From Trueperaceae bacterium (lineage in GTDB: Bacteria; Deinococcota; Deinococci; Deinococcales; Trueperaceae): a stretch of 34,015 nt of DNA. Made by a program: the position numbers and the translations under genes. Within the stretch, counting starts at the first letter, position 1. Each line of letters starts with the position of its first letter. Where the stretch lies: assembly GCA_019454765.1 (NCBI GenBank), contig JACFNR010000031.1, positions 1 through 34,015 on the forward strand, read 5' to 3'. A model generated the notes under the pieces. That model was not told the origin of the DNA and ran no database searches. It saw nothing but the letters and a program-made list of their open reading frames with translations. Positions 14,863-17,971 of the stretch are shown here, piece by piece.

Positions 14863-16053
14863 TCAGTCGTCGGCCAGGAAGCGCCTGAGCTGGACCGCCA
14901 CCTGCGGGTACTCGATGAGGAAGGCGTCGTGCCCGTGGGGCGAGGAGATGGTGGCGTAGCGGGCGTTGGGCAGCCGCTCCACCAGGGCCTTGGCCTCCGC
15001 CGCCGGGTAGAGGACGTCGGAGTCGATCCCCATCACGAGCGCCGGCATGGTCATGGCGCCGAGCACGGCGGTGGGGCTGCCGCGCCCCTCGGCGACGTCG
15101 TAGTCGTCCATGGCGCGGGTGAGGCTCAGGTAGGTGTTGGCGTCGAAGCGCTTCACGAGCTTCACGCCCTGGTACGCGAGGTAGGAGGCTATCTGGAACG
15201 ACGCCTCCAGCGCGTCGTTGGCGCCGCGCACGTGCCCGTCGACGCGCTCGCGGCCGAACTTCTGCTCGAGCGAGTCGTACGACCGGTAGGTGAGCATGGC
15301 GATGGCGCGCGCCAGGCCGAGGCCCGTCTCGGGTTGCCGCTCCAGCGGGTAGCGGCCCCCCTGCCAGGCGGGGTCGGAGGTGATGGCGCGGCGCGCCACC
15401 TCGTTGAGGCCGATGGCCCAGGCCGAGTGCCGCGCCCCGATGGCGATGGGCACGATGCCCCTCACCATCTCCGGGTGGGTGGCGGCCCACTCGAGCACCT
15501 GCATGCCGCCCATGCTGCCGCCGATCACGGCCCTGAGGCTCTTGACGCCAAGCTCGGTGAGTAGGCGGTGCTGGACGGCGACCATGTCGCGCACCGTGTA
15601 GCTCGGGAAGTCGGGGCCGTAGGGGTGGCCGGTGGCGGGGTCGAGGCTGCTGGGGCCGGTGGTGCCGTAGCAGCCGCCGAGGACGTTGCTGCACACGACG
15701 AAGTAGCGGTTGGTGTCGATGGGCTTGCCGGGGCCGATGAGGGGGTCCCACCAGCCGGGGACCTCCTCGCGGTCGGCCACCCCGGCGGCGTGAGCGGAGC
15801 CCGTCAGCGCGTGCGCCACCAGGACGGCGTTGGTGCCGGCCGCGTTCAGCTCGCCGTACGTCTCGTAGGCGACGGCGACTCGCGCAAGGCGGCCGCCGCG
15901 CTGGAGCTCGAGCGGGCGTTGGGGGGTCGCCACGTCGAGGACGTGTTGGCTCACCTGCCCGACGCTCCCCTGCCGGCCCGCGCTGTCGCGGGCCAGCAGG
16001 GCGGCGTGGTCGCCCCACGTCTCGTGGACTAGGACGCGGCTGTCCTGGCTCAA
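14863..16053 (-). CDS. metX: Homoserine O-acetyltransferase
   Basis: MetX activates homoserine with an acyl group from acyl-CoA, opening methionine synthesis by direct sulfhydrylation. It is an alpha/beta-hydrolase protein: [29 protein letters not shown] near residue 62, [34 protein letters not shown] in two adjoining motifs, the nucleophile elbow GGSMGG (Ser180), the acid Asp in GIDSDVLYP and the base His in PHGHDAF. Length is 396 aa with the TTG start at 16051-16053. No ATG lies in a plausible place and the first 45 residues are poorly conserved, so the true start may be further in. It sits 22 bp after metY and is probably cotranscribed with it under the SAM riboswitch. Some family members use succinyl-CoA; that cannot be excluded. 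Confidence 0.93.
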
Positions 16054-16075
16054 GGCGTTCCCGCCGGGCCGGGGC

Positions 16076-17407
16076 TCAGTCGGCCGCGGCGGCCGAGGGC
16101 TGGTACGCGCGGGCGGCGGCCAGGGCCTGGGAGAAGTCCTCGATGAGGTCATCGATGTGCTCCAGTCCGGGGGTCACGCGGATGCGTCCGGTGGCGACGC
16201 CCGCCTCGATGAGGCCGGCCTCGTCGAGCTGGGAGTGGGTGGTGCTGGCGGGGTGCGTGACGGAGGTCTTGGCGTCGCCAAGGTTGACGAGGCGCGAGGC
16301 GAGCTTGACCGCGTCGATGAACGCCTGGCCCGCCTTGAGGCCGCCCTTGATGTCGAAGGTGAAGAAGGCGCCGGCGCCCTTCGGGAAGTTGGCGCGGGCG
16401 TACTCGTAGCTGGGGTGGCCTGGGAGCTCGGGGTAGTTGACGCTCTCGACCTCGGGCTGTTGCGAGAACCACTCCACCAGCTTGCGGGTGTTCTCGACGT
16501 GACGGTCGGCGCGCAGGCTGAGCGTCTCGAGGCCCTGGAGGAACAGGAACGAGTTCTGGGGGGCGAGCGTCTGGCCCTGGTCGCGCAGGCCCTCGACGCG
16601 GGCGCGGATGGCGAAGGCGATGTTGCCGAAGGGCGAGCCCTTGCCGAACACCTCGGAGAAGACGAGGCCGTGGTAGCTGGGGCTCGGTTCGGAGAAGCCT
16701 GGGTAGCGGCCGTTGCCCCAGTCGAAGGAGCCGATGTCGACGATCACGCCGCCGAGCGCGGTGCCGTGGCCGTTTATCCACTTGGTGGCGGAGTGGACCA
16801 CGATGTCGGCGCCGTGGTCGCCGGGCCTGAAGAGGTAGCCGCCTATGCCGGAGGTGTTGTCGACGATCACGGCCACGCCGCGCTCGTGGGCCACGTCGGC
16901 GATGGCCCTCACGTTCGGGAGGTGCAGGCTGGGGTTGGGGACGGTCTCGATGTAGACGGCCTTGGTCTTGTCGTCGATCAGGCGCGCGAACTCGGCGGGG
17001 TCGTCGGAGCCGCTCACGAAGCGCCCCTCGATCCCGAGGCGCGGGAGGGTGACGCTCAGCATGTTGTGCGTGCCGCCGTAGACGTTGGGCGAGGCCACGA
17101 TGTTGTCGCCCGCCTCGGCCACCATGGTGAAGGCGAGGAACTCGGCGGCGTGCCCGCTGGCGGTGGAGACGGCGGCGAGGCCGCCCTCGAGGGCGGCGAT
17201 GCGGCGCTCGAAGACGTCGTTGGTGGGGTTCATGATGCGCGTGTAGATGTTGCCGAACTCCTCCAGGCGGAAGAGGCGACCGGCGTGTTCGGCGCTATCG
17301 AAGTTGTAGGCGGTGGTCTGGTAGATGGGGACGGCGCGCGACTTGGTGGTCGCCTCGACGGTCTCCTGGCCGGCGTGGATTTGTAGCGTCTCGAAGCGGT
17401 ATGCCAT
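16076..17407 (-). CDS. metY: O-acetylhomoserine sulfhydrylase (aminocarboxypropyltransferase)
   Basis: MetY is a PLP enzyme that makes homocysteine from O-acetylhomoserine and sulfide. The 443-residue protein has [10 protein letters not shown] at the N-terminus, [43 protein letters not shown], and the PLP lysine in [13 protein letters not shown] (Lys209). The later part has [10 protein letters not shown] and [21 protein letters not shown]. Length and the [10 protein letters not shown] form fit the Cys/Met metabolism PLP family, OAH sulfhydrylase branch. The ATG follows AGGAGA at 8 nt. The gene is followed by metX 22 bp later, so the pair carries out both committed steps. A SAM-I riboswitch lies 344 nt upstream, with a small ORF and tandem hairpins in between. 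Confidence 0.96.
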
Positions 17408-17435
17408 CTTGGGTCTCTCCTGGTATCGGAAGGAT

Positions 17436-17481
17436 GCTAGTGCGGTCGCGCACGAGCGCGCACGCTAGTGCGTCAACGCAC
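17436..17481. repeat. Two direct repeats, each a short inverted repeat, before metY
   Basis: GCTAGTGCGGTCGCGCAC (17436-17453) and GCTAGTGCGTCAACGCAC (17464-17481) are 28 bp apart start to start. Each holds GTGCG and CGCAC separated by 4 nt. They lie 29-74 bp before the metY ATG. They could be operator half-pairs for a repressor or small RNA hairpins in the leader; the minus strand of the second copy also reads TTGACG. Confidence 0.7.
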
Positions 17482-17562
17482 ATGGTGGTCGGGCGATGAG
17501 CAGCCGCTGCGTCCGCTCGCCGCCGGCGAGGGCGCGGGGTGCGGCTTCGCGGCCAGGGCCGC

Positions 17563-17637
17563 CTAGGACATTCGTTGCGTGAAGGGGTCGCTCCACAGGC
17601 GCCGCGAGCGGCGCGCGTCAGGTTCGGTGTTCGTCAT
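17563..17637 (-). CDS. 24-residue leader ORF between SAM riboswitch and metY
   Basis: An ATG at 17635-17637 is followed by 24 sense codons and a TAG. A very strong ribosome site, GGAGGAGGG, lies 5 nt upstream. The peptide begins MTNTEPDARRSRR and ends LWSDPFTQRMS. It is basic in the middle, has a penultimate Met codon, and has no Cys or run of Met codons. I recognise no family. It lies 115 nt past the riboswitch and 155 nt before metY. The GGAG of its ribosome site is part of a potential hairpin (CTCCGGC pairing with GCCGGAG), so its translation could be controlled by the leader fold. Whether it is a functional small protein or a regulatory uORF is unknown. Confidence 0.5.
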   Translation of the reverse strand: MTNTEPDARRSRRLWSDPFTQRMS

Positions 17638-17751
17638 GCCGGCCCTCCTCCGGCCCCTTCGGGTGGCGGCGGCGCCGGAGATCGTCTCGTGCGCGCCCGG
17701 CCGCGGCCCTCGTGGCCATGTTGCGAGGCTCTTCGCCCCTATCTTCCCGGC

Positions 17752-17859
17752 GGCTCACCATCGTGGCTGCGCCTCCGGCTGGAGTTAGCACCCGCCTGAA
17801 TGAAGGCTGGTTGCTGCGGCGTCTAGGGGCCAGGTCCCTCGGCCGCTCTCGATAAGGCC
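17752..17859 (-). promoter_or_regulatory. SAM-I (S-box) riboswitch upstream of metYX
   Basis: The minus strand carries the SAM-I consensus in order: CTTATCGAGAG, GAGGGACCTGGCCC, GCAGCAACC, GGTGCTAACTCC and GATGGTGAG. The conserved GAGGGAC...TGGCCC, GCAACC and GGTGCTAA blocks form the SAM-binding core and kink-turn region. The P1 arms are GGCCTTATC at the 5' end and GATGGTGAGCC at the 3' end, imperfectly paired. The 108-nt length is typical. It should turn off metYX when S-adenosylmethionine is plentiful. No classical hairpin with a T-run follows at once; the leader continues for 344 nt to metY, so the switch may act on translation, on the small ORF, or through Rho. Confidence 0.92.
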
Positions 17860-17937: not shown

Positions 17938-17971
17938 GAGCGTCGGCCGTGCAAGCACACGGCCGACGCTC
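17938..17971 (-). terminator. Terminator of the exported-protein gene at 18017
   Basis: The arms GAGCGTCGGCCGTG (17938-17951) and CACGGCCGACGCTC (17958-17971) form a perfect 14-bp stem with a 6-nt loop. On the minus strand CGTGTGTTTAAC follows. It separates this gene from the metYX leader. Confidence 0.75.

Follow-up and report, generated by a model that had tools for sequence, protein, structure and literature searches.

A conserved Arg-Met leader ORF accompanies the SAM-I riboswitch upstream of metY in Trueperaceae

Amino-acid leader peptides are a classical arrangement. In Rhodobacterales, a uORF with Cys codons (uORFC-8-2) is found ahead of cysS (PMC8632094). Riboswitches placed over small ORFs have been described in Mycobacterium tuberculosis. 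The uORF that follows a B12 riboswitch there, uPPE2, must be translated for PPE2 to be made (PMC11260477). It overlaps ppe2 at an AUGA sequence and acts by termination-reinitiation (PMC11260477). In the same species, a Mg2+ riboswitch (Mbox) controls the uORF Rv1805A before pe20, with Rho-dependent termination (PMC12810186). Riboswitch-uORF relays are thus already known from M. tuberculosis; the SAM-I riboswitch with an Arg-Met leader described here is, to judge by the literature searched, a new variation on them.

The locus was studied in a 34,015-nucleotide stretch of a Trueperaceae contig (the window), and all features given below are on its minus strand. A SAM-I (S-box) riboswitch aptamer at 17736–17858 sits ahead of the methionine genes metY (O-acetylhomoserine sulfhydrylase, 16076–17407; TIGR01326, 605 bits, cut-off 495) and metX (homoserine O-acetyltransferase, 14863–16152; NF001209, 473 bits, cut-off 331). 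The aptamer scores 72.1 bits against Rfam RF00162 (gathering threshold 44.4), and a whole-genome search found no other copy of this family. A first-pass annotation, made from the sequence alone, had described a SAM-I riboswitch with a long leader in which a small ORF with a strong ribosome site precedes metYX. We confirm this layout: the ORF has 24 codons (MTNTEPDARRSRRLWSDPFTQRMS, 17563–17637), and its ribosome site is GGAGGAGGG at 17643–17651, with a strong site also present in nearly all relatives. The distance from the end of the aptamer to the metY start is 328 nt and not 344 nt as first given. The annotation was right that no terminator closely follows the riboswitch, since no intrinsic terminator was found in the window between the aptamer and metY. 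The sole one found lies upstream of the leader, at 17938–17971, where a 15-pair stem is followed by CGTGTGTTTA.

We compared the metY leaders of Trueperaceae, having first placed aptamer and metY start in every one. The small ORF is present in every metY leader of the family that was readable in full. An alignment of related leaders had been proposed as a check on the ORF, and it came out in the ORF's favor, with start, ribosome site, stop and frame conserved. The hexamer CGAATG is found in 30 leaders from 14 genera (17569–17574 in the window, plus homologous leader ORFs at 29 more loci), and in 30/30 it shares the reading frame of the leader ORF, where it encodes Arg-Met. When starts were called independently, as the first strong ribosome site with an ATG or GTG after the aptamer, CGA-ATG was open and in frame from the called start in 28/28 leaders. 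The remaining two leaders have an ACG or weak start, and CGA-ATG is in frame there too. The distance from start to CGA takes values of 6, 18, 21, 24, 27, 30, 36, 45, 48, 51, 57, 63, 69, 72, 78 and 135 nt and is always a multiple of three. Since this distance varies, the frame has been kept through many independent length changes. By our own estimate, which counts approximately 18 distinct genus-by-length cases and leaves stop codons uncounted, the frame would be kept by chance with a probability of about (1/3)^17. The comparison indicates that the small ORF is a genuine, conserved part of the leader, and that riboswitch and ORF together form a two-part unit shared by at least 14 genera.

In the body of the leader ORF, neither sequence nor length is conserved and no residue is fixed beyond Arg-Met. 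Between close relatives, the interior codons are under little purifying selection, and the signal at the peptide level is weak and mixed. Such interior codons are what a chance ORF in a GC-rich leader would have, with the riboswitch reaching metY directly by a long-range route. The comparative evidence speaks against this explanation, and leader ORFs are found in AT-rich relatives as well (L059, L062, L070 and L043), so that we regard it as barely credible. The first-pass annotation had also raised the idea that the peptide itself works in sulfur metabolism. This is unlikely, because the body is almost unconserved save for Arg-Met and because in one locus (L065) Arg-Met are residues 3 and 4 of the ORF. 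Searches with NCBIfam HMMs gave no match to leader-peptide families for six representatives (E up to 1).

The Arg codon of the Arg-Met pair is CGA in 30/30 loci, whereas in the metY genes at these loci CGA makes up 3.8% of the codons for Arg. A tRNA scan of the genome detected Arg tRNAs with anticodons ACG, CCG, TCT and CCT and gave eleven further lower-scoring matches, mostly of Leu/Ser length, that were typed in part only. Given the Arg tRNAs detected, CGA should rely on the ACG tRNA. Reading of CGA by this tRNA involves inosine-adenosine wobble, a slow pairing. Downstream of the pair, the first base of the codon after ATG is always C or T, and the sequence SCGG begins exactly 6 nt after ATG in 26/30 loci, compared to at most 3/30 at any other offset. 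In the shortest ORFs (ending in RMS, RMF, RMR or RMP before the stop) SCGG lies beyond the stop codon, and in longer ORFs (ending in AA before the stop) it is coded, showing that its position is tied to CGA-ATG rather than to the stop.

In most loci SCGG is the foot of a hairpin. The window has a short hairpin, GCGGC-CCTG-GCCGC, at 17549–17562, with its foot exactly 6 nt past ATG. On average, the 60 nt past ATG fold better than shuffled sequences (mean z −1.57), with the strongest local folds in the AT-rich relatives L059 (z −5.2) and L062 (z −4.2) and in L039 (z −3.9); the window's own segment is not unusually stable (z 0.65). A stem 6 nt beyond an AUG in the A site stands at the mRNA entry of the ribosome, and this spacing is known from frameshift and pause stimulators. 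The sequence CGAATG-N6-GCGGC has one copy in the genome, and no consistent second location was seen in the family, where background numbers are close to those of a reversed-pattern control. We conclude that the main feature of the leader, absent from the first-pass annotation, is CGA-ATG, kept in frame and followed at a constant distance by a hairpin foot.

At the nucleotide level both the hexamer and SCGG are kept, and SCGG can fall past the stop codon, both of which would fit a non-coding RNA element or a protein-binding element for which the reading frame is incidental. We consider this very improbable because 28/28 leaders, of many lengths, have CGA-ATG open and in the frame set by the first strong-site start. 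Pairing of CGAATG elsewhere in the leader was considered and rejected, as its full complement is not enriched (2 loci versus 1.4 expected), and this also speaks against a non-coding element. A second explanation draws on arrest peptides, which often combine a variable body with a conserved dipeptide at the C terminus. Plant CGS1, a member of MetY's enzyme family, undergoes SAM-dependent arrest. By analogy, Arg-Met in the exit tunnel could arrest the ribosome with SAM or methionine as ligand, and both the conserved dipeptide with its variable body and the kinship of CGS1 and MetY fit. With Arg-Met at residues 3 and 4, however, the L065 ORF would place almost no chain in the tunnel. Furthermore, what is conserved is the codon (CGA only) together with its distance from an RNA hairpin, and no residue is fixed besides Arg-Met. 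Ligand-dependent arrest by the nascent peptide is therefore improbable in our judgment.

The first-pass annotation had suggested that the riboswitch could act on the small ORF. The relatives support this, with an expression platform aimed at the ribosome site of the ORF family-wide. In five loci (L040, L052, L059, L062 and L070) the P1 3′ strand doubles as the ORF ribosome site, reading GATAAGGAGG...ATG and variants. In 20/20 other loci examined, P1 is followed by GGGGC-loop-GCCT(C/G), with GCCTC itself in 19/20, and GGAGGC is the usual ribosome site. L035–L037 are built in a third, compact way, in which the ribosome site lies right next to P1 on its 3′ side. In the window, the P1 5′ strand CCTTATC (17851–17857) pairs with 17743–17737, within the 3′ strand GATAGGGGC (17735–17743). 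The GGGGC part of this 3′ strand can serve as an alternative partner, or anti-sequestrator, of the adjoining GCCTC (17725–17729), which comparison with relatives marks as the candidate sequestrator of the small-ORF ribosome site. The inner P1 pairs hold in 19–20 of 20 loci, with compensatory types TA/GC/CG and CG/TA. Each of the five pairs of the GGGGC/GCCTC helix is likewise kept in 19–20 of 20 loci (as GAGGC/GCCTC in two), and this helix appears in the predicted SAM-free fold of the window. The GCCTC/GAGGC sequences hardly vary, so their pairing is consistent and covariation is no proof of it.

Folding of the leaders with P1 forced versus forbidden gave lower exposure of the ribosome site in 15/28 loci and higher exposure in 4/28, three of the four being close relatives. 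These constrained folds are only mildly supportive. Taken across the family, sequence comparison gives good support to a SAM-I aptamer that governs access to the ribosome site of the small ORF and not to that of metY. Platform control is less supported for the window sequence than for the family. Here, pairing of GCCTC with the ribosome site is limited to the four pairs of CCTC/GAGG, as in the two nearest relatives (L033 and L034), and ribosome-site exposure is unchanged whether P1 is forced or forbidden (0.14 and 0.14). The seven-pair helix that had been proposed to cover part of the site is also of limited reach: CTCCGGC and GCCGGAG are both present, at 17680–17674 and 17654–17648, but the helix is private to this genome, being conserved in 0/7 relatives checked.

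Within the family, the leader ORF is absent from SAM-I copies that precede metF-, metH- and adenosyltransferase-like genes and metY paralogues, where all these gene names were assigned by eye from translations. For example, in L041, L042 and L044 a metY paralogue with its own SAM-I begins right past the aptamer, with no leader ORF. In three genomes (G007, G021 and G025) the sole sulfhydrylase found is approximately 45% identical, and the leader with its ORF precedes that gene (L045, L052 and L160). No Arg-Met leader ORF was found at SAM-I loci of the other families examined.

Several other small ORFs near SAM-I elements were observed. In another Deinococcota family (L007, L010, L011 and L020) a different small ORF has Cys codons (...CSGRCCPG...) and a ribosome site that overlaps with the SAM-I P1 strand GATAAGGAGGT, and it lies ahead of an operon with an adenylylsulfate-kinase-like gene. 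Judged from sequence, this is a second combination of SAM-I with an amino-acid leader. In L218, an ORF of 22 codons has its ribosome site in overlap with the SAM-I P1 and itself overlaps the start of an adenylylsulfate-kinase-like gene. In a Bacteroidota metY locus (L082), a Met- and Cys-rich small ORF (MKNSIRHSAIFMICTMCMCMHSHI) lies upstream of a SAM-I-like element.

One Trueperaceae locus (L159, G015:C36) has the leader ORF MHAISTGVCHRLGASPRRMRRAAVTPA with its ribosome site ahead of metY, and no SAM-I was found in its genome. Retention of the ORF without a detected riboswitch suggests that the ORF has a role of its own and argues for sensing of its own. The obvious candidate for the sensed signal is methionine or Met-tRNA, given a fixed AUG as A-site codon ahead of a methionine gene.

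In most loci a stretch of 75–416 nt separates leader ORF from metY. The leader ORF of L065 continues for 46 codons and overlaps the metY start; this single case suggests that leader translation is positive for metY. Rho is encoded in the genome, and Rho-dependent loss of the transcript when the leader is untranslated would be the simplest route, one that has a precedent (PMC12810186). No C-rich Rho-site signature was found in the leaders, whose best C-over-G stretch is no better than metY coding windows (mean fraction 0.51), and Rho is therefore possible and unsupported by the leader sequences. No fold that blocks the metY site was seen in common among the leaders. A programmed frameshift extending the ORF toward metY was considered and rejected, as it is not conserved and, at many loci, stop codons shut the other frames after a few codons. 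On our reading, metY would probably depend on the leader ORF.

Repeats were also observed in this stretch. Copies of GCACTAGC lie at 17485–17430 in the window and in the same place in L033 and L035–L037, inverted in L035–L037; they are common to the window's genus. L059 and L062 have TACCTAGT/ACTAGGTA repeats between leader ORF and metY. It is possible that such repeats are an operator or a hairpin.

A rival explanation is a simple relay in which the ORF senses nothing. The riboswitch would toggle translation of the ORF, the ribosome would shield the leader from Rho or carry translation to metY, and CGA-AUG would tune speed only. The M. tuberculosis precedents (B12 riboswitch/PPE2, PMC11260477; Mg2+ riboswitch with Rho, PMC12810186), the presence of Rho in the genome and the L065 ORF that reads into metY are all in line with such a relay. 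However, it leaves the invariant rare codon and the fixed 6-nt spacing unexplained, the leaders lack C-rich enrichment, and L159 retains the ORF with no riboswitch detected. We therefore find the relay doubtful.

We favor, with a probability of roughly 0.6, a two-stage translational leader that governs metYX through a riboswitch-gated ORF and then a CGA-AUG pause. With SAM, P1 would form and hide the ORF ribosome site, which in some loci is the P1 strand itself and in others would be paired with the freed GCCTC. Without SAM, the P1 strand and GCCTC would pair, freeing the ribosome site. A ribosome translating the leader ORF would then pause at CGA-AUG, with the wobble-decoded Arg codon in the P site and the Met codon in the A site, and the hairpin 6 nt ahead would add to the pause. 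The pause would lengthen when Met-tRNA is short, perhaps serving to sense Met-tRNA. Either the pause or plain leader translation would permit metY expression, probably by preventing premature termination. Expression of metYX would in this way follow SAM and also, by means of the Met codon, the supply of methionine. The pause and its effect on metY are read from conserved sequence features and are the more conjectural stage. The conserved site holds a single Met codon, with no Met run and no repeated regulatory codons; a single Met codon is a weak starvation sensor, which we count against the two-stage proposal. It is conceivable, though we would not bet on it, that the leader is an AND gate in which ORF initiation reads SAM and elongation reads methionyl-tRNA, so that only low SAM together with low Met turns on metYX. 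The Met-tRNA sensor would be the more essential part of such a gate, as the ORF survives loss of the riboswitch. Under the two-stage proposal, as judged by conservation, the two-part leader probably decides whether MetY is made.

In the openly accessible literature searched, we found no description of SAM-I with a leader peptide or uORF, of an Arg-Met leader, or of Truepera riboswitches. If our reading is true, this is the first SAM-I riboswitch in that literature with a leader ORF as its direct target, and one pathway is placed under two serial sensors, one of a metabolite and one of translation. The rare codon, which never varies, and the hairpin at its fixed spacing would offer a clean codon-pair pause site that lends itself to testing. 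The leader also illustrates one way in which bacteria of high GC content, whose leaders of this kind lack terminators, may deal with the coupling problem.

The closest parallels each share part of this arrangement. As in the B12 riboswitch–uPPE2–ppe2 system, a riboswitch stands over a small ORF, which in that system is translated and is needed by the downstream gene. Unlike uPPE2, which overlaps its gene, the Trueperaceae ORF usually ends well short of metY, the aptamer is SAM-I, and an Arg-Met pair and hairpin are conserved. The Mbox–Rv1805A–pe20 system has a similar translational platform, with an anti-ribosome-site sequence aimed at a conserved small ORF before an operon (PMC12810186). Its peptide is conserved, whereas Trueperaceae keep the Arg-Met codons only, and ligand and phylum differ. 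Amino-acid attenuators such as uORFC-8-2 (PMC8632094) also have a short ORF with a codon for the pathway amino acid beside an RNA hairpin. In contrast to these, the Trueperaceae leader has a single Met codon after an invariant CGA, lacks a terminator hairpin with a T-run, and has initiation that is probably gated by a riboswitch. Finally, terminator-type SAM-I riboswitches precede metY-like genes in related families, with the same aptamer and genes of the same pathway; the Trueperaceae platform differs in dispensing with a terminator and in taking a leader ORF as its probable target.
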